41,209 nt of DNA from Flavobacteriales bacterium (GTDB lineage: Bacteria > Bacteroidota > Bacteroidia > JANQJC01), in contig JANQJC010000075.1 of assembly GCA_028281825.1 (NCBI GenBank), forward strand, positions 1 through 41,209. The letters run 5' to 3'. A program made the translations under genes and the position numbers. Every line of letters starts with the position of its first letter. The stretch's first letter is position 1. The notes beneath the pieces are model-generated. The model did no database searches. It saw only the letters and a list, made by a program, of their open reading frames with translations, and was not told the origin of the DNA. This document shows positions 28,013 to 36,791 of this stretch, piece after piece.

Positions 28013-28065
28013 AAAAGGAGGCACATAGCAACCCACCCGGAACACGGTTGCTAGCCTCCTTTTTT
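28013..28065. terminator. Strong bidirectional terminator hairpin
   Basis: Outer stem AAAAGGAGGC / GCCTCCTTTT and inner stem TAGCAACC / GGTTGCTA around a 12-nt loop, with a 3-nt bulge. T-run on the plus side and A-run on the other, so it can end both the plus-strand 27719 unit and the minus-strand 28064 gene whose stop codon touches it. Confidence 0.85.
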
Positions 28066-29512
28066 ATTGTTTGATTATCTTAACAGATGTAGCATCATCA
28101 CTACCTAGCAAACTGAGCACATATACCCCGCCTGATAGCTTTCCACCCTCCCAATTTACCTTCACTTTGCCCCTCAAATCTATCTGTGCCACCTCGCACC
28201 CAAGTAAATCACTCACAATAGCATATTTGTAATCATGCCCAATTTCTAATTCAATATTTATCTCATCTACAAATGGATTGGGAAACACTTCTTTTATCGA
28301 TGATTGCTCCGTATCATTTATGCCCACGCCTGACAACCTATATGTTTTAACTTTTCCTGCCCAATCTCCATTAATACGATCCGTTGGTGAACCAACTATA
28401 ATCCTATCTCCAGCAGCGTTTAACTCAATCGCATAACCTGCCAATTCACTCTCCAATTCCCCAATGATGGTATGACTGAGTTGCCAATCATCATTTATCC
28501 ATCTGTATATTCTCACCAGCCCTTTGTTTTCAGGACCCCAATAGGGCACACCAATAGCCAACACTTCACCATTCTCATTCAAGCTCACCACTCCACCGCC
28601 AGAATATTCCGAACCAGCCGATATATCATCCCCCATCTGCGACCATTGTGAACCCGTCCACCCAAACACTCTAACACTACCAGGTGAAGAAGGTGGATTT
28701 ATTAGTTCGTGTCCTAATCCAATGGCAAGAATAGTTCCATTCGCATTAAGACTAACCGTTGAACCCGAAGCAATCCCCCAAGCTTCACCACTAATGTCAG
28801 CCTTTTGCTGCCAATCACTATTTTCATACTTAAAAACTCGGACTCTCCCATTGTTATAGTCTAAACCATCATGAATGGGTGAACCAATAGCAATAACATC
28901 TCCAGTGGAATTTAGACTTAGTGTAAACAATTCCATAAACCAAGATGACTGTGTGGTTTGCTCACTGATAGTATTCCCTTTTTGAGACCATATATTTCCA
29001 TTCCAATGGTATATTTTGGTATAGCCTCCACTTCCATTTCTCACATCGCCACCAAGGGCAACTGTGTTACCGTCAGCGCTCAAAGCAATCCCATCTGAAG
29101 CTGCCACTATATCAAACAATCCCTTTTGTTGCCAACTGCTTCCGTCCCAATAACGCACATGCACACTACTATCATTGGCAATGGCTATGGTATTTCCATC
29201 TGCACTTAATTGTATGTCACCAACAAAATCAATACCTATGCTACCGCCAGGCAGGTGAGATTTAGGCACCCAATCACTGCCATCCCATGAAAAGGTTTTT
29301 ATCACCCTAACTTCTCCAACCCCAGTTATATACTCTTCATCATTCATCGCTATTGTACTACCATCAGCACTCATACTCACCCAGCCACCCAAATAGGTAT
29401 TCTGCTCATACCCCAAAAAGGTACTCCCAAACTGTATCCATGGCTGGCAATAGGTTCCTGGTGAGAAAAAACTGGTTACTAAGAAAGTAAAGGCAAATAA
29501 AACTGGTCTCAT
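28064..29512 (-). CDS. T9SS-secreted protein with beta-propeller-like repeats
   Basis: 482 residues from the ATG at 29512. A longer frame to 29554 exists, but the -7 box at 29539-29546 lies inside it and 29512 opens a good signal peptide (MRPVLFAFTFLVTSFF..). About seven repeats of the form LSADGNTIAIG......VRVYxWxGxxWxQxG follow, typical of FG-GAP/kelch-like propellers. The last 75 residues are a type-A T9SS sorting domain (VFPNPFVDEINIELE, GGVYVLSLLG, SVKIIKQ), so it is exported across the outer membrane by T9SS and probably attached to the surface. Ligand unknown. Confidence 0.88.
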   Translation of the reverse strand: MRPVLFAFTFLVTSFFSPGTYCQPWIQFGSTFLGYEQNTYLGGWVSMSADGSTIAMNDEEYITGVGEVRVIKTFSWDGSDWVPKSHLPGGSIGIDFVGDIQLSADGNTIAIANDSSVHVRYWDGSSWQQKGLFDIVAASDGIALSADGNTVALGGDVRNGSGGYTKIYHWNGNIWSQKGNTISEQTTQSSWFMELFTLSLNSTGDVIAIGSPIHDGLDYNNGRVRVFKYENSDWQQKADISGEAWGIASGSTVSLNANGTILAIGLGHELINPPSSPGSVRVFGWTGSQWSQMGDDISAGSEYSGGGVVSLNENGEVLAIGVPYWGPENKGLVRIYRWINDDWQLSHTIIGELESELAGYAIELNAAGDRIIVGSPTDRINGDWAGKVKTYRLSGVGINDTEQSSIKEVFPNPFVDEINIELEIGHDYKYAIVSDLLGCEVAQIDLRGKVKVNWEGGKLSGGVYVLSLLGSDDATSVKIIKQ

Positions 29513-29538
29513 GGCAGTAAATTGGTTATTAGGCATAT

Positions 29539-29546
29539 CAAATGTA
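29539..29546 (-). promoter_or_regulatory. -7 promoter element TACATTTG
   Basis: Perfect TAnnTTTG on the minus strand, 27 nt before the ATG at 29512; it decides the start codon of the propeller-like protein. Confidence 0.55.
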
Positions 29547-29601
29547 TGAAACAATATTAACTAGAAAAGTTCTGCAACGACCATTTACCATAAAAATCAT
29601 A

Positions 29602-29628
29602 TTGTAAAATATATTTATTTTTTGTAAA
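29602..29628 (+). promoter_or_regulatory. Direct-repeat operator candidate TTGTAAA-N13-TTGTAAA before the small terminase
   Basis: TTGTAAA at 29602 and again at 29622, two helical turns apart. The whole block aligns to 34066-34098 at about 29 of 33 positions, although the two genes are 4.5 kb apart and otherwise unrelated. The second repeat lies 8 nt before the ATG at 29637. Possible target of the HTH protein at 36219-36551. Confidence 0.5.
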
Positions 29629-29636
29629 TTAGTTGC

Positions 29637-30107
29637 ATGACAGCGACTAAGCAAAACCAATTCTGGAAACTCCGCTCAAAGCACGGTAGAGACACCCTAT
29701 TCAGCAACCCACAAACCCTGTGGCAAGCCGCTTGCGAATATTTCCAATGGTGTGATGACAACCCACTATACAGCAGCGAAATGATGAAGGCAGGCCCATT
29801 GAGTGGTGAGTTTGTAAGTATACCACACGCCCGCCCTTATACCATTGAGGGCTTTTGCAGATATTGCGGCACAGGGGTTAACTACCTTCAAAATCTCAAA
29901 AACACGGCTACCCCTGAAATGCAGGAAGTGATTGACATGATACAAGCTACCATTCGTCAGCAAAAGTTTGAAGGTGCAGCAGTAGGCCTTTTCAATTCAG
30001 CCATTATCTCCCGCGATTTAGGCTTGAAAGAATACACCCCACAAAACAGCACCATCCACATCACTGTCGCCAACAACGATGAACGCGAGATAATAGAAGG
30101 ACTGTAA
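29637..30107 (+). CDS. Phage terminase small subunit (gp3-type DNA-packaging protein)
   Basis: 156 residues, full length for the family. Recognised from the opening FWKLRSKHGRDTLF, the LWQAACEYFQWCDDNP segment, RPYTIEGFCRYCG, and the near-invariant QKFEGAAVGLFNSAIISRDL followed by GLKE. These are hallmarks of the gp3-like small terminase that recognises phage DNA and recruits the large subunit for packaging. The next gene but one feature, at 30201, is the large subunit. No frameshift or stop is seen. No other packaging or head genes are near. Confidence 0.88.
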   Translation: MTATKQNQFWKLRSKHGRDTLFSNPQTLWQAACEYFQWCDDNPLYSSEMMKAGPLSGEFVSIPHARPYTIEGFCRYCGTGVNYLQNLKNTATPEMQEVIDMIQATIRQQKFEGAAVGLFNSAIISRDLGLKEYTPQNSTIHITVANNDEREIIEGL

Positions 30108-30109
30108 AC

Positions 30110-30153
30110 CGTCGCTGCGAGCGGGTGATAACCACCGCGGCAATCTCTTGAAC
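30110..30153 (+). repeat. Intergenic repeat fragment after the small terminase
   Basis: Starts 3 nt past the stop with CCGTCGCTGCGAG and ends GGCAATCTCTTGAAC. The first part resembles CCGTCATTGCGAA right after the stop at 34848, the last part CAATCTCTTGTAC after the large terminase (31421). Downstream (30160-30180) GGCTAACAGCTA also matches part of 12948-12962. Confidence 0.4.
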
Positions 30154-30200
30154 AAATATTAGCCGTTAAAGGCTAACAGCTAAATGCTTAAAGCTCATTC

Positions 30201-31370
30201 ATGAAATTCACCTCAGTATTCTGGAAAAACGCCAGGGCCAACACCCGCTTTGTCATCAACCAGGGTGGCACATCATCCTCTAAAACACACTCATTGCTGC
30301 AACTGATGTACCTCAAGGCACTCAATCGCTCACAGCAAGGCAAGTCTATACTTATCTCCGTGCTGGCAGGCACCATGCCCCACCTTCGCAGGGGAGCCAT
30401 GCGTGATTTCCTCAAAATGCTGCAAACCGAAGGCGTGTATGACGAGAGTGCCCACAACCGCTCTGAAGACATCTATCGGGTAGGCAACTCACAAATAGAA
30501 TTCTTTAGTGCCGATGATGCCGCCAAGGTACGTGGCGCCCGCCGTGACTTGCTTTTCATCAATGAGTGCAATAACGTATCCTTTGACGTATTCGAGCAAC
30601 TGGAAGTACGCACCAAAGAACAAGTCTTTCTGGACTACAACCCCGTCACCGAGTTTTGGGTACACCAAAAGATAGCACCTCTAAGCGAAGCCACCTTTAT
30701 CCACAGTACCTATAAAGACAATGACTATCTCGACCCACGAATCGTTCGAAGTATTGAACTACGCAAAAAGATGCCAGGCATGGAAAACTGGTGGCGCATC
30801 TATGGCATGGGGCAAACAGGCCAGTTTGAAGGGCTGATTTACACCAATTGGGAAACAGTAAACGAATTCCCCGCCGATTGCAAATGGATTACCTGTGGTC
30901 TCGACTTTGGCTTTACTAATGACCCAACCGCCTGCATCAAGGTGGGTTACTACGATGGTGCCCTTTGGCTCGACGAACTCTTCTACGATACCAACCTCAC
31001 TAATGGTGATATCTGCCGTCAACTGGCTCAAAGCCACCTACCACCCCATTCTGAAATCATTGCCGATAGCGCCGAACCCAAAAGCATTGAAGAAATACGC
31101 CGTACCGGTTACCACATCAAGCCAGCCATCAAAGGCAGGGACAGTATAGCGGCTGGCATCAGCCTGGTAAAAAGCTACCCACTCAAAATCACCCACACCA
31201 GCACCAACATCATCACCGAGCTACGCAACTACAGCTGGCAAAAAAACAGCAACGGCCAATGGCTCAACACCCCTATCGATAGCCACAACCATGCTATGGA
31301 TGCCCTGCGCTATGCCATTCAATACAAGCTCAATCGGGCGGGCATCAGAGTACCTACCTATCATTTCTAA
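30201..31370 (+). CDS. Phage terminase large subunit (Terminase_3 type)
   Basis: 389 residues, close to full length. ATPase domain: variant Walker A QGGTSSSKT (21-29), Walker B LLFINE (117-122) with catalytic Glu122, and a coupling-type segment LDYNPVTEFWV (144-154). RNase-H-like nuclease: GLDFGFTNDP (233-242, Asp235), ADSAEP (288-293, Asp289) and NHAMDALRYA (363-372, Asp367), so all three metal-binding acidic residues are present. The protein would translocate DNA into a prohead and cut it. There is no portal, protease or capsid gene downstream; an exported non-phage protein follows. Codon use is visibly more GC-rich than in that next gene. Confidence 0.93.
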   Translation: MKFTSVFWKNARANTRFVINQGGTSSSKTHSLLQLMYLKALNRSQQGKSILISVLAGTMPHLRRGAMRDFLKMLQTEGVYDESAHNRSEDIYRVGNSQIEFFSADDAAKVRGARRDLLFINECNNVSFDVFEQLEVRTKEQVFLDYNPVTEFWVHQKIAPLSEATFIHSTYKDNDYLDPRIVRSIELRKKMPGMENWWRIYGMGQTGQFEGLIYTNWETVNEFPADCKWITCGLDFGFTNDPTACIKVGYYDGALWLDELFYDTNLTNGDICRQLAQSHLPPHSEIIADSAEPKSIEEIRRTGYHIKPAIKGRDSIAAGISLVKSYPLKITHTSTNIITELRNYSWQKNSNGQWLNTPIDSHNHAMDALRYAIQYKLNRAGIRVPTYHF

Positions 31371-31420
31371 CTTGCTCGCAGGCAAAGACCCGTAATCTCT
31401 CCACCATTCTGTTTCCTAAA

Positions 31421-31460
31421 CAATCTCTTGTACCTGAATCACCGCACTTCAAGTCAGGTA
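31421..31460 (+). repeat. Inverted repeat and repeat fragment after the large terminase
   Basis: CAATCTCTTGTAC followed by a perfect inverted repeat TACCTGA/TCAGGTA (31431-31437 with 31454-31460). A weak transcription terminator is possible (followed by TTGTTGTT), but the stem is short. Confidence 0.35.
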
Positions 31461-31565
31461 TTGTTGTTCTCCTGCAACCAATTCTATAACAATCATTTGC
31501 ATTTTTGTTAGTAATTCAATATCATTGTTGAGCATTACATTGTTTTACCAACCAAACCAACCGCC

Positions 31566-34058
31566 ATGAAAAGAATTCTCCTCGCTTTTCCAATACTGTT
31601 ATTTTCTTTTTTCACCATCGCCCAAGAGTTAGAACATGAAGCCCCTACGCTACAAGTAGGCTTAAATGGCTTAGGCTTTTCACCAGGTAGCCTAGACGCA
31701 AAACTGGTAATGGAAATAGTAGCAGAAAAACAACAAGAAGTAAAACTTAAAATTGTCCAGAACATGTTTCTAGAAAAAATGGGAGCTACGGGTGGCACTT
31801 TTTATTCATTTGCTGACAATATTGTGAAAAATATCATAGAAGAGCACAACCCCCAGATCAGAACCAAAAAGATTCTAGAAAATGCCGTAAATCTAGTATT
31901 CGTTGTTACGTTTCTTGATTACTACTTGCGTACGCTTGATAATGCCAATAATAAGGATAATCTTGAGAAATTCCTTGAATATTACACAATAGAAAACCCA
32001 ACATATACACAAAAAGGCCTACTGGGCCTGTGGAAGGAAAATAATACCCATCGGAGAGAGAAACGTGTGTTTTATGATGAAAAAAATATCAAAGCCATAG
32101 CTCTTCTTATTGATATGTGTAGTGATGTGATAAAAAACAACGAAAAACTAGAAGAGCTTGGACTCATGCAAACCTCCTATTCTGCATCCTATGATAGGCT
32201 CAATCTATATCTTAATCCAAAAGAGATAAAACCAGCAACAACACAAGCAATTTATGACGACCTTACAAAGAAACTAAACCAAGTAGTCAACTATATAGGT
32301 CTAGCCAATTACTTAACCCAGCAATATAGTTTTCTATACACTGAATTAGGAAGAAGAGGTGTCACAGAAGGAATATCAAAAAAACTCGAACTTTTCGGTG
32401 CAGAAAAAGCCCAATTAATGTTTCAAAAACAAAACTTCAAGTATGAGAAAGAACAATTAGAAAGTACAAAAAACCAATTAATTAACAAAAGAGATAGTTT
32501 TAAAACCTTCAAGAAAAGACGGAAGAAAAAACTTAACAAGGAAATTAGAGAAGTTGATGATAAAATAACCCTTTATGAAAAACAAGCCCAATCCTTTCAG
32601 GATAAGATAGATAAAATAAACAAGGAAATTGGTGAAGGTCTTACCAAAAAGGTAAGTGACATAGAAGAAGAACTGAAAGGACTGAAGAAAAAGCTTGACG
32701 AACAAAAACTTAAACCAGAAGAGGTTATAGCCACCTCAAAAAAGGTTATAGGATACAACGGCGTATACTTTAATGATAATGCTCTAATTACTGGTCCACT
32801 GAACAAAGTGGCAGATAATTTAAAAGAGGTGATAAAGGGCCTAGCCGTGAAAAGTAACACAGATTTGTTATCAGAGGAAAACGCGGAGATGACTAGACTA
32901 GCGGTAAATAACCTTATTGAAATACAAAACTACCTATACAAAACTGTTAATCTACTGGATGGCACAGCTAGAGCTTCAAAAAAAGAAGTTTTAAGCGATG
33001 TAGTTTATAGTTTGTTTACTTGGATATTACCAGAGATAAGGCAATTAGCTTGGGTTAATGCTGAACTGGCAACACAACTAAAAACCCTTCAAGGTATTAC
33101 AGATGACCTAGCAATGGGCCTAATTGCAGATAATCCCAATTTCATAAATCTTAAAAAGGTTTACCCATTCATCAACCTCGCTGGAAAACTCTATGAATTT
33201 AAAGATGCCAAAACATTCTCAGACTACCTGGCATTCATTACCATGCTCGAAGACGTATTCCCAGGTGGACATATAAAAGATGCAGTAGCCACCCTTGTAT
33301 CCTTTGTAAAAGACTATACTGTAATTGAAACAGATGGAAACAACAATGAGTATGTCAGCTTTAATGTAGAAAGTTTTTTAGTAAAACTCCAATCTATTAA
33401 GCCAAATAAACTTAGACGTTTAGGCTTCCAGTTTACTGTTGGTGTTAACCATACCTTCTTTGGCAAAAATGTCACGATAACTACTAGTGACAATTCACTC
33501 ACCAATGTGCGCAACTTCTCCTATGTAGGGGAAAAAATTGGTGTGAAAATAAAAATATTAGATAGGGAATTTTGGATGACACGTAATCCTGGTGAAGTAT
33601 ACAAAAGATACAAATGTGGAAACTGGCTAATAAAAAACACACCTCCCAAGGAACCAGTATTGAGTAATATTTTTCTAAATATTTACGGTTCTGGTATTCT
33701 ATACAACTTAGTGAATACCAGTACCAATGAGGAATTTAAACTTCCGTTAGTAGGTACTGGTTTGGGCTTTACTTTCTTTAACGGCCTCGATATCACCTTC
33801 TCAATGGGCGTACCCATTTTTGATAACAAACCATTTATATCCAAATTAGATTCATACACCGTTAATTACAACAATGGAGAGAGCATGACTTATCGCAAGC
33901 AACTTAACTCCTTCGACTATGCATTCTTCAATGTTGGCTTCGATATCCAATTCACTGAGTATTTGGATAGGTTGAACAAAAGAAGAAAAGCCAACAAAAC
34001 ACAAAAACAATTAGCCAAGGCAGTTGCTGCTCAAGACTCAAAGAATAATCAAAATTAA
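31566..34058 (+). CDS. Large exported coiled-coil protein of unknown function
   Basis: 830 residues. Signal peptide MKRILLAFPILLFSFFTIAQ. The N-terminal half is helical; residues about 275-385 form a long charged coiled coil (KEQLESTKNQLINKRDSFKT, KKKLNKEIREVDDKITLYEK). A helical middle follows, and the last 200 residues look beta-rich with aromatic-ended strands (FQFTVGVNHTFFG, GTGLGFTFFNGLDITFSMG, YAFFNVGFDIQF), like an outer-membrane or surface beta domain, ending in a basic tail. I recognise no family. It is clearly AT-richer than its flanking phage-type genes, which points to separate origin. It sits between the terminase and the 34114 gene on the same strand. Confidence 0.8.
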   Translation: MKRILLAFPILLFSFFTIAQELEHEAPTLQVGLNGLGFSPGSLDAKLVMEIVAEKQQEVKLKIVQNMFLEKMGATGGTFYSFADNIVKNIIEEHNPQIRTKKILENAVNLVFVVTFLDYYLRTLDNANNKDNLEKFLEYYTIENPTYTQKGLLGLWKENNTHRREKRVFYDEKNIKAIALLIDMCSDVIKNNEKLEELGLMQTSYSASYDRLNLYLNPKEIKPATTQAIYDDLTKKLNQVVNYIGLANYLTQQYSFLYTELGRRGVTEGISKKLELFGAEKAQLMFQKQNFKYEKEQLESTKNQLINKRDSFKTFKKRRKKKLNKEIREVDDKITLYEKQAQSFQDKIDKINKEIGEGLTKKVSDIEEELKGLKKKLDEQKLKPEEVIATSKKVIGYNGVYFNDNALITGPLNKVADNLKEVIKGLAVKSNTDLLSEENAEMTRLAVNNLIEIQNYLYKTVNLLDGTARASKKEVLSDVVYSLFTWILPEIRQLAWVNAELATQLKTLQGITDDLAMGLIADNPNFINLKKVYPFINLAGKLYEFKDAKTFSDYLAFITMLEDVFPGGHIKDAVATLVSFVKDYTVIETDGNNNEYVSFNVESFLVKLQSIKPNKLRRLGFQFTVGVNHTFFGKNVTITTSDNSLTNVRNFSYVGEKIGVKIKILDREFWMTRNPGEVYKRYKCGNWLIKNTPPKEPVLSNIFLNIYGSGILYNLVNTSTNEEFKLPLVGTGLGFTFFNGLDITFSMGVPIFDNKPFISKLDSYTVNYNNGESMTYRKQLNSFDYAFFNVGFDIQFTEYLDRLNKRRKANKTQKQLAKAVAAQDSKNNQN

Positions 34059-34065
34059 AATCCAC

Positions 34066-34092
34066 TTGTAAAATATATTCACATTTTGTAAA
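34066..34092 (+). promoter_or_regulatory. Direct-repeat operator candidate TTGTAAA-N13-TTGTAAA before the 34114 gene
   Basis: TTGTAAA at 34066 and 34086, exactly the 20-bp period seen at 29602/29622. The first 14 nt (TTGTAAAATATATT) and the TTTTGTAAATT block are identical in both places. The ATG follows 21 nt after the second repeat. Confidence 0.5.
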
Positions 34093-34113
34093 TTGGCGTC
34101 TAATTCAAAATAG

Positions 34114-34848
34114 ATGCTACTACCCTACACCATCAATAGTAAAACCATTGACTGCCCTACCAATTGGCACGAAGTAAGTCTTGAGCTACTCCTCAAACTG
34201 GAAGGCAAAAACATCTACCAAAAGCTGGCTATTGTCACAGGCTTATCCGTTGGTGAAATAAAAGCCCTGGAGCCTCAAATAGACCAGCTTTTTGGTGTGG
34301 TACTGCAATGGATGACCCGTCAACCCGACTTCAGTAAGATACCCCTGCCTCAAGAGTTTTTGGGGCACCCTCTCCCCTTCGACCCCAAGAAAAAAACCTT
34401 TGGGCAAAAGCTCTACGCCCAGCAGATAGTCACATTACCTACTGCCGAAAAAATTGTGCAGTCCTTCCCTGAACTGATAGGCACTTACTTGACAGATGAA
34501 TTCAACGACGAAAGGATTGAGCATTATACCCAACTAGCCCGTGATGCCAAAGCCATCGAGGCTGTGCCTATAGCCCTGTGGTTGCAAAAGGAAGTAATTA
34601 AAATACTGGAAAGCGAGAACAAACTCCTTAAAAACGAACCCACCAATGAAGAGCGACGTGCAGGCTTAAAAAACTTCGACAAGTTTGGTAGCTTCAACCT
34701 GATAGACACCCTTGCCGGTGGCGACATACTTAAACACGATGCCATCTACCAGCAAAACTATGAACGTATCTTCATCAAGCTACTGAGAGACCTTGAGGTA
34801 AGCAAATTCCAACGCCGCCTTAACGAGATATACTCCCAAAGGAAGTGA
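34114..34848 (+). CDS. Phage-type protein, possibly tail-assembly-chaperone-like
   Basis: 244 residues, no signal peptide. The opening (CPTNWHEVSLELLLKLE, IVTGLSVGEIKAL, LFGVVLQWM) follows the pattern 'W-x-E-hydrophobic-x-x-x-x-hydrophobic ... LTGIPxEEIxxL' seen in tail-assembly-chaperone-like proteins of Bacteroidota phages. The middle contains FGQKLYAQQIV and a long run predicted helical; the C-terminus (FQRRLNEIYSQRK) is basic. It shares the TTGTAAA direct repeat with the small terminase, which supports a phage-related role. The family call rests on pattern only and may be wrong; a generic phage hypothetical protein is the safe reading. Confidence 0.6.
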   Translation: MLLPYTINSKTIDCPTNWHEVSLELLLKLEGKNIYQKLAIVTGLSVGEIKALEPQIDQLFGVVLQWMTRQPDFSKIPLPQEFLGHPLPFDPKKKTFGQKLYAQQIVTLPTAEKIVQSFPELIGTYLTDEFNDERIEHYTQLARDAKAIEAVPIALWLQKEVIKILESENKLLKNEPTNEERRAGLKNFDKFGSFNLIDTLAGGDILKHDAIYQQNYERIFIKLLRDLEVSKFQRRLNEIYSQRK

Positions 34849-34849
34849 T

Positions 34850-35020
34850 ACCGTCATTGCGAAGAGGAACAACGAAGCTATCCCTGACCGTTACGGAAAC
34901 ACCGCGTTGGTGAATGCCCTCATCCCTGCCCCTCTCCTGAGGGAGAAAGGAGTAAAAATCCCGCTCGGCCTGTCCCGAAGAATTTCGGAAAGGGGGAGGG
35001 CTGGGGATGGGGTGTAAAAC
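34850..35020. repeat. Composite palindromic repeat between convergent genes
   Basis: Begins CCGTCATTGCGAAGAGG (like 30110). Then comes an imperfect long inverted repeat: a C-rich arm at 34917-34937 (CCCTCATCCCTGCCCCTCTC) and a G-rich arm at 34992-35011, with CCGAA/TTCGG inside. The G-rich arm continues into GTGTAAA as at 14813-14851. It lies between convergent 34114 and 35038 genes and may stop transcription from both sides. Confidence 0.5.
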
Positions 35021-35037
35021 AGGCTCTCAATGACACC

Positions 35038-36156
35038 CTACTCCTTCACAAACCTACCCGTACTCACCTTACCCTCCTGTATCAATTGCACAAAGTAGTT
35101 ACCTGTTGGTAATTGGCTCACGGGCAATCTGTTCACCTTACCTGCAACAGGCTGGCTCACCACAATCCTTCCCTCGGCATTATAGATAACCACTGTGCCT
35201 TGGGTAGGCTCATCCAAATTGAAGATAATTGTCTCAGTAGCTGGATTTGGGTAAATGCTTAGCTGCGTATGGTCCAGTTCCTCCGTACTTTGATAAGTGT
35301 CATAAGTATAGGTATGCCTGCTGTGGTTTTCCCAAACATTTACCAACCATGATTGGGCAATCTCCTGGTAAGGTAAATCATTATTACCATAAATAGTCTC
35401 TATCCTGCCTGCAATCTCCCAATCACTGCTATTCACATTCCAGTTTGAAATTACTTCCATAATAAGGTCGCTATCACTATTGTAGGTATATTCTCTTTTG
35501 TTTTGGCTTCGCCATCCGCCATTCTCCCACAGCTGGGTTTCTCTCAATGTTAGCAATCCATTGCCATTGTATGTACGAAGTACCTTACCATCCGTGAGCC
35601 ACGTATCTATCTGGTCATCCCAACTTTCATAAAGTTCTTCTGTTAACACCCCATTGCTGTAAGTATACGTCCCCCTGCTTGAGTTAACCCAAAGGCTATT
35701 GTTGCTGTCCCATACTTTAGAAACCGCTTGTATTTGGTTGCCATTGCCATCATAGGTATACTCAATCCTATTGGCATTAACCCACACGCTACCACTCTTA
35801 AACTGGTGAACATAGGTAGCCACATTGCCGTTGCCATCATAGGTATATAGGTCTCTACCTGTGTCTTCCCAGCCATTGTTTTCACTTTGGCTTAGCTGCT
35901 CTGTAAGTTGGGTGCTAGAGTTATAGGTATAAACAGTCCTGTAAAATGGAATCCAAAAGCTTTGCAGTTCATCCCATGTATAAGAATAAACTTCCTCCTC
36001 ATTCAGGTTGAAGTTGTAGAAGTAGGTACTGAGGGTGGTGTACTCCCACTGCCCACTTTCCCATTCTTCATACAAATCCTCAGTTAACAATAACTGGGCA
36101 TTGCCAACACCAACAAAAGTGATGAAAACGATAAATAGAAGTAAGGGTCTTTTCAT
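35038..36156 (-). CDS. T9SS-secreted protein with YD-like tandem repeats
   Basis: 372 residues from the ATG at 36156; an upstream in-frame ATG at 36189 lies before the -7 box and is rejected. Signal peptide MKRPLLLFIVFITFVGVGNAQ. Roughly ten repeats of about 28 residues, each with (E/G)YTYxxNGxL and W.xxxW, e.g. YTYDGNGNQIQAVSKVWDSN, resemble the YD motifs of RHS proteins but without an RHS core or toxin. The C-terminal 80 residues are a T9SS sorting domain (LSIYPNPATETIIFNL, GNYFVQLIQEGKVSTGRFVK). A surface or secreted protein is expected; function unknown. Confidence 0.87.
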   Translation of the reverse strand: MKRPLLLFIVFITFVGVGNAQLLLTEDLYEEWESGQWEYTTLSTYFYNFNLNEEEVYSYTWDELQSFWIPFYRTVYTYNSSTQLTEQLSQSENNGWEDTGRDLYTYDGNGNVATYVHQFKSGSVWVNANRIEYTYDGNGNQIQAVSKVWDSNNSLWVNSSRGTYTYSNGVLTEELYESWDDQIDTWLTDGKVLRTYNGNGLLTLRETQLWENGGWRSQNKREYTYNSDSDLIMEVISNWNVNSSDWEIAGRIETIYGNNDLPYQEIAQSWLVNVWENHSRHTYTYDTYQSTEELDHTQLSIYPNPATETIIFNLDEPTQGTVVIYNAEGRIVVSQPVAGKVNRLPVSQLPTGNYFVQLIQEGKVSTGRFVKE

Positions 36157-36186
36157 GGCCTGCAAGGATTTTGGTTTACTGCAAGC

Positions 36187-36217
36187 CAAAAATAAGAAAT
36201 AACAGCCTAACGGGAAA
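36187..36217 (-). promoter_or_regulatory. Promoter of the YD-repeat gene (TTTC-N19-TATTTTTG)
   Basis: On the minus strand TATTTTTG (36194-36187) lies 31 nt before the ATG, with TTTC at the -33 position (36217-36214) at the standard 19-nt spacing. Same -7 box and same distance as in the composite fibre gene. Confidence 0.6.
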
Positions 36218-36218
36218 G

Positions 36219-36551
36219 CTAGTCGCCCACCTTCTTTTCAAGCACCTCTAGGCGGTTCATAATGGTTTTCAGCATGTCTTTTTCTTCTTCGCCAAACATG
36301 GTGCCTTTGCCCGTGAGCAGCCAATGGCCATTCACATCATAGCGTTCGCAAAGTTTAGTAAGCATTTGCAGGCTCACGCTGCGTTGGTAAGCAGGATTTT
36401 TAATTTGTGTAATGGCTGAAGCATTACTACCCAAACTCTCGGCAAACTGACTGATATTAGTGACTTCTGTGGTGCGCTTGGCTATAATATTGTTCATAGC
36501 CTCCAGAAAACGCTCATTTACACCGTCCAGGGCTTGATTTTTACGTGGCAT
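36219..36551 (-). CDS. Phage-repressor-like HTH transcriptional regulator
   Basis: 110 residues. An XRE-type helix-turn-helix at about 28-90 (ISQFAESLGSNASAITQIKN, SVSLQMLTKLCERYDVNGHW) followed by the LLTGKGTMFG motif typical of Bacteroidota phage and mobile-element regulators, then a short C-terminal helix (KTIMNRLEVLEKK) likely used for dimerisation. Its own upstream region carries a TGTAAA-N9-TTTACA palindrome, related to the repeats before the small terminase and the 34114 gene, so autoregulation and control of those genes is a reasonable inference. The next gene downstream has its own promoter. Confidence 0.85.
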   Translation of the reverse strand: MPRKNQALDGVNERFLEAMNNIIAKRTTEVTNISQFAESLGSNASAITQIKNPAYQRSVSLQMLTKLCERYDVNGHWLLTGKGTMFGEEEKDMLKTIMNRLEVLEKKVGD

Positions 36552-36791
36552 CGTTATTATACAGTTGGTTTGCCCTGTAAAGATATATAATTTACAAATG
36601 GATTAAAAGTAATTCGTAGGACAGTTTATAGCCTCACCTAATCATCCACCTTATGGTCTCGGGTACTGTAAATATTACTAAAAACAATTACCAAAAAGAT
36701 GATAAATCTTTCTGCCTATTCAAGGTACGGCTATTTTGAGTCATCTGTGGACGTTTGTTAGGTGCAGCCATTCAAAAACCCCATCTTACTT
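36552..36791. other. Intergenic region upstream of the HTH gene
   Basis: 240 nt. Apart from the palindrome at 36576-36597 I see no ORF, no tRNA and no strong terminator for the 36792-38315 gene that ends here. Confidence 0.5.
36576..36597 (-). promoter_or_regulatory. Palindromic operator candidate TGTAAA-N9-TTTACA before the HTH gene
   Basis: TGTAAA (36576-36581) and TTTACA (36591-36596) form a perfect inverted repeat with an AT-rich 9-nt spacer. Read on the minus strand it contains TTTGTAAATTA, the core shared with 29621 and 34085. Lies 25 nt before the ATG and includes a -7-like TATCTTTA (36585-36578). Confidence 0.5.

Follow-up and report, generated by a model that had tools for sequence, protein, structure and literature searches.

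A twin TTGTAAA block before two units of a dispersed, GTA-like phage-derived gene set in a Flavobacteriales genome

Gene transfer agents (GTAs) are phage-like particles through which bacteria exchange their own DNA. They have been described in few lineages, with very few outside the Alphaproteobacteria (PMC12946183, 2026). No report of a GTA in Bacteroidota was found among open-licence PubMed Central papers; a report in a subscription journal or a preprint is possible. The phage-derived element described here, found in the genome of a Flavobacteriales bacterium (G000), resembles RcGTA, the other alphaproteobacterial GTAs, BhGTA of Brachyspira, and FpGTA of Faecalibacterium (PMC12946183) in its terminase, portal, capsid, and tail genes, all derived from tailed phages. 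It also resembles them in full endogenisation at several loci, where integrase and replication genes were not seen, and its relatives are under purifying selection and probably inherited vertically. It differs from them in its unrelated phage ancestor, which is of the phi46:1 type with the tail genes before the head genes, and in the class of its host (Bacteroidia). Secreted-protein genes among the structural genes and the palindromic operators of the related genus g82 are further differences, and a particle and transfer are predicted for the present element. As to the phages, Cellulophaga phage phi46:1 and Elizabethkingia phage TCUEAP1 have a like gene order (TerS-TerL-gp16-gp17-gp18-gp19-gp20-tape measure) and, as in the element, keep the genes for Clp protease, capsid, and portal apart as a block of their own. 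In contrast to the element, which is spread over three contigs, both are complete and have replication genes, and their structural proteins are only ~25–35% identical to those of the element. In the BT12/SJC01 group of Bacteroides phages, TerL is 45% identical and a related TerS lies directly upstream, but these are free phages of B. thetaiotaomicron, and no match was obtained for their tail and head genes.

The twin block and its neighborhood

The window, i.e., the whole stretch of DNA that was analyzed (41,209 nucleotides), is the entire contig C6 of G000 (4,020,893 bases in 144 contigs). The first-pass annotation of this DNA had reported a TTGTAAA-N13-TTGTAAA repeat of 20-bp period before two phage-type genes, and both copies were present on the forward strand with no mismatch (29602–29628 and 34066–34092). 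The likeness of the blocks is slightly lower than reported (about 29/33), at 26/29 from TTGTAAA to TAAATT and 27/31 one step on. In the whole genome, the pattern has two exact matches, both on C6, against ~0.1 expected by our own estimate from base composition. No further exact copies were found, and the scattering before housekeeping genes that had been named as contrary evidence was not seen. The reversed control pattern gave 0 matches over all 4,020,893 bases, and a 25-base block consensus with up to three mismatches retrieved nothing from the whole genome beyond the same two sites. When the 70-bp upstream regions of 130 genes in a 276-kb genome sample were compared pairwise (non-overlapping pairs, n = 8,376), the highest 33-bp identity (27/33) belonged to the regions upstream of terS and the 34114 gene; the runner-up pair reached 26, and the bulk of the pairs 15–19.

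The second TTGTAAA of block 1 overlaps the usual site of the Bacteroidetes −7 element (TAnnTTTG) in G000. This element preceded 33 of 100 sampled genes versus 12 in controls, mostly 10–40 bp upstream of ATG. The position of the block would thus fit an ordinary housekeeping promoter of G000. We consider this explanation improbable, because the genome holds just two exact copies in 4.02 Mb, TTTGTAA was found before only four genes in a sample of 100, including two of the element, and the block departs from the Bacteroidetes −33/−7 spacing. With a spacing ~7 bp too short, the block was not accepted as a canonical Bacteroidetes promoter (TTG-N19-21-TAnnTTTG). A sigma-70 scan performed no better than on shuffled sequence.

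The features around the blocks are listed in Table 1. TerL appears intact, as judged from the motifs GGTSSSKT, LLFINE, LDFGFTND, ADSAEP, and HNHAMDALRY, and it is the single TerL found in G000 (one phrog_2 match genome-wide). The gene at 34114 is called gp16-like by position in phage phi46:1. Its product matches TCUEAP1_3 of the Elizabethkingia phage (35% over 92 amino acids, E = 9e-9) and a relative in genome G056 (25%, E = 2e-12). Relatives were found in 2 of 60 other genomes searched (G056 and G013, of one genus), and homologues also occur in the prophage-like loci L060 and L066 of other Bacteroidia. A single-sequence structure model was uninformative (mean pLDDT 36.5), and an assignment as tail assembly chaperone was dropped, its basis having been position alone. 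Judged from these homologies, terS–terL and the 34114 gene are members of one phage-derived set. As had been noted, unrelated DNA lies between the blocks: the two phage-type units are separated by the gene of an 830-aa secreted protein, which had no convincing family or phage match in Pfam and PHROG. This gene was also considered as the tape measure and rejected (E = 0.017, signal peptide). The two phage-type units are flanked by genes (28064–29554 and 35038–36189) for proteins with matches to the type IX secretion C-terminal sorting domain; for the first gene, the match is below the Pfam cut-off.

In phages and in g82, terS, terL, and gp16 are adjacent, whereas in G000 the unrelated gene lies between them, and the likeness of the two blocks is promoter-sized. 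The terS promoter may therefore have been copied before the 34114 gene when the 830-aa gene was inserted, the likeness then reflecting copying and not a regulator. We regard this origin as possible but somewhat doubtful. The 13-bp core has diverged at three positions, but neither TTGTAAA copy has changed, a pattern suggestive of selection on the TTGTAAA copies. Moreover, a duplication is compatible with co-regulation, as a copied promoter still co-regulates.

Table 1. Coordinates of the features discussed. Positions without a contig or locus label are those of the window.
Feature	Location	Strand	Remarks
Candidate promoter/operator block 1 (TTGTAAA-N13-TTGTAAA-TT)	29602..29630	+	7–35 bp upstream of terS start codon
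terS, small terminase subunit	29637..30107	+	156 aa; PF16677 GP3_package, E = 3e-25; phrog_606, E = 6e-38
terL, large terminase subunit	30201..31370	+	389 aa; PF04466, E = 2e-12; PF17288, E = 3e-18; phrog_5653, E = 6e-38
Secreted-protein gene, unrelated insertion between terL and 34114	31566..34058	+	830 aa; signal peptide, coiled coil
Candidate promoter/operator block 2	34066..34094	+	20–48 bp upstream of 34114 start codon
gp16-like gene (34114)	34114..34848	+	244 aa; homologues directly 3' of terL in phages/elements; phrog_28240, E = 4e-6
XRE-type HTH gene, candidate regulator	36219..36551	-	110 aa; phrog_9710, E = 8e-15; phrog_8, E = 1e-7
TGTAAA-N9-TTTACA palindrome	36576..36596	-	upstream of HTH gene; resembles 5' half of blocks
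68-bp intergenic repeat	34968..35034; L032 3010..3077		C6 and C71
Tail-type genes	C71 286..5073		
Clp-type head protease	C143 (L095)		phrog_94, E = 2e-53
Probable major capsid protein	C143 (L095)		phrog_38780, E = 6e-46; 23% to TCUEAP1 gp15, E = 2e-13
Portal	C143 (L095)		phrog_11226, E = 5e-90
gp05-like, DUF6712, spike-like proteins and holin	C143 (L095)		
TTGGRAGTTCCATGTGA..TCACATG site	C5:14450 (L113)		before XRE-S24 regulator
TTGGRAGTTCCATGTGA..TCACATG site	C13:50004 (L143)		before secreted-protein gene
TTGGRAGTTCCATGTGA..TCACATG site	C138:27566 (L144)		before PaaZ-like gene
TTGGRAGTTCCATGTGA..TCACATG site	C90:4347 (L127)		before dnaN
TTGGRAGTTCCATGTGA..TCACATG site	C143:36426 (L145)		before head operon
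g82 palindrome (T)ATGCC-N4-GGCAT	L057 3970, 13882, 16892		similar places in L056–L062, L154–L173
XRE-S24/S24 (CI/LexA-like) genes	L097 7548..8423; L017 7579..8454; L073 698..1399; L104 14491..15315		by head genes in G013, G056, G113; also on G000 C5

Further element genes in G000 and in other Bacteroidia

Portal, capsid-type, and tail genes had been expected elsewhere in the genome, and they are present on contigs C71 and C143. With the five tail-type proteins of G013/G056 as queries, homologues of four were found on C71. One of these genes is split into two frames (473a/473b); the other examined element genes of G000 are open and of full length. The head genes on C143 were found by searching with those of related elements, and the C143 portal has no close relative in IMG/VR. 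No tape measure was found in G000 with G013 and g82 queries, no lysin or endolysin was found in G000, and no integrase or replication genes were seen beside the element loci on C6, C71, and C143. An active prophage would have its structural genes in a single block together with integrase and replication genes; here, the structural genes are on three contigs. C6 and C71 have in common a 68-bp intergenic repeat of 93% identity whose copies adjoin element genes on both contigs, and the G+C content is similar across C6, C71, and C143; these facts support the assignment of the three contigs to one genome. TerL of G000 is ~40–45% identical to other phage and g82 TerLs and ~33% to those of G013/G056. 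Since it is nearer to the former, the gene set is mosaic.

G013 and G056 carry the same gene set at two loci, with the tail and packaging genes apart from the head genes, and the loci have the same neighbors in both genomes. The 34114 relative is followed by the five tail-type genes, and terS–terL is divergent. By our own arithmetic, and with synonymous change near saturation, dN/dS in this pair is ~0.02–0.12; the range across the element genes of the relatives is ~0.02–0.2. The portal and tape measure genes of G056 are frameshifted. Assembly error is likely, because housekeeping genes of that assembly also appear frameshifted.

In the genus g82, the 640-aa tail gene occurs in 91 of 150 genomes (81 of the 118 good ones), in most cases as a single copy with an open frame. 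With few exceptions, the order at 26 loci is TerS, TerL, gp16, t157, (gp10), g473, g640, TMP, Clp, MCP, gp05, and portal, and the element usually adjoins one lipoprotein gene on the opposite strand. Small secreted or lipoprotein-type genes stand between the structural genes, often before TMP (L056–L062, L154–L173). For the g82 element genes, dN is far below dS. Protein distances of TerL parallel those of the flanking lipoprotein (Mantel r = 0.90, p = 0.0005), as do those of the 640-aa protein (r = 0.82). The related elements are single-copy and stand at conserved sites. Purifying selection on them is strong, and their divergence parallels that of a flanking gene. In the g82 genome G230 (L072 1–2600), the Clp protease gene is split and the capsid and portal genes are missing there; elements of such class can therefore decay. 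Because of this apparent loss and of g82 species without the 640-aa gene, the element is regarded as kept but not indispensable.

These observations bear on whether the genes of G000 are the scattered debris of one or more broken-up phi46:1-like prophages, the twin block being a leftover phage promoter of no present role. The phage homology, the gene order shared with phi46:1 and TCUEAP1, the failure to find a tape measure and lysin in G000, and the g82 genome without head genes would agree with debris. We nevertheless judge it unlikely. Apart from the split 473a/473b, the examined genes of G000 are open and full-length. Against debris also stand the low dN/dS values of the relatives, the occurrence of one copy per genome at a conserved site across most species of the genus, and the divergence parallel to the flanking gene. 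Retention of a genome-unique promoter before exactly two units would also be unexpected.

Operators of the scattered units

The small regulon proposed in the first-pass annotation stands in part. The two units on C6 have a common block and the units of the relatives have a common operator, but the expectation of the 20-bp repeat before further phage-like genes failed: it is absent from the tail genes on C71 and from the head operon on C143. The upstream region of the C71 unit carries just TAAATTTGTAAC, and no TTGTAAA pair lies upstream of the head operon. Instead, the head operon is preceded by a block of TTGGRAGTTCCATGTGA with an inverted repeat, CATGTGA..TCACATG, that extends to the start codon. 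This block also stands before four other genes, which encode the XRE-S24 regulator on C5, DnaN, a PaaZ-like protein, and a secreted protein; dnaN and the PaaZ-like gene were named by us from sequence, without a family search. The copy at the head operon has matching substitutions in its two arms (CATCTG..CAGATG), a hint that pairing matters. Because the block also precedes dnaN and the PaaZ-like gene, the idea of a TTGGRAGTTCCAT regulon confined to the element was dropped.

The g82 palindrome is located directly downstream of the promoter, before the TerS, TMP, and Clp units. ATGCC-N4-GGCAT is intergenic almost everywhere, with at least one copy in 25 of 26 g82 loci, and about half of its distinct occurrences in six whole g82 genomes fall inside the ~26-kb element. 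As the separate units of g82 have a common palindromic operator, cis elements tie scattered units together in such elements.

The TGTAAA-N9-TTTACA palindrome reported before the HTH gene was found where expected, and it is possibly the gene's own operator. The 110-aa protein, whose HTH_19 match is below the Pfam cut-off, may bind TTGTAAA, and it could regulate the element through such half-sites, including one in its own promoter. In its favor, the upstream regions of the HTH and 34114 genes match at 18 of 20 bases (AATCCAyTTGTAAAwTATAT), a score reached by 1 of 126 background regions, and the HTH is of phage type and encoded 1.4 kb from the 34114 gene. On the other hand, the half-sites are inverted with N9 at the HTH gene and direct with N13 in the blocks, and the HTH and 34114 genes are separated by the gene of a secreted protein, which is on the opposite strand. 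No close relatives of the protein were found near the elements of other genomes, where XRE-S24 proteins are near the head genes instead: an XRE-S24 gene adjoins the head operon in G013 and G056, and an S24 gene is near the element in one g82 genome. The C143 head operon, which has no such half-site before it, would be left unexplained. Regulation of the element by this local protein is thus rather unlikely.

A GTA-like reading of the element

The blocks are, in our view, probably a matched promoter/operator pair of a domesticated, dispersed, GTA-like phage-derived element. The second TTGTAAA of each block would cover the −7 region of RNA polymerase, and the first, two helical turns upstream, would be the probable site of a regulator. 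The two blocks would jointly switch on the separated units terS–terL and gp16-like 34114. The tail genes on C71 and the head operon on C143 (protease, probable capsid, portal, and holin) would complete the set from other promoters. Together, the encoded proteins would form a phage-like particle, into which the single terminase of G000 would load DNA. The gene set, its scatter, and the twin block are present in G000, and co-regulation of the two units by the block is strongly suggested. We infer that particles form, that they package host DNA, and that this DNA is transferred.

The element was compared with the definition of GTA viriforms through six features (PMC9662315). Tailed-phage-derived proteins are represented by terminase, portal, head protease, holin, and tail homologues. 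Full endogenisation, often at multiple loci, is seen in the three loci of G000 and the two of G013/G056. Mostly vertical inheritance, with co-diversification with the host, is suggested in g82 by the conserved site and by the Mantel correlation (r = 0.90) against one flanking gene. The definition also names packaging of largely random host DNA, delivery of DNA to other cells, and an own genome that does not fit whole into one particle; as to the last, the dispersal in G000 suggests that all loci would be too much for one headful. With two of the six features found (PMC9662315), the element is termed GTA-like, not a GTA. The best reading is a gene-transfer-agent-like viriform, for which packaging and transfer are predicted.

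A further step would be a domesticated, working GTA of Bacteroidia with an independent origin, vertically kept in most of a large genus. Its scattered units would fire together via lineage-specific operators, namely ATGCC-N4-GGCAT in g82, TTGTAAA-N13-TTGTAAA for two units of G000, and a dnaN-type promoter for the head operon. We put this forward tentatively, with somewhat less than even confidence. If true, the conserved g82 element (81/118 good genomes), with its readable operator, would be a tractable system and would give insight into host control of a dispersed phage and into DNA exchange in a major phylum.
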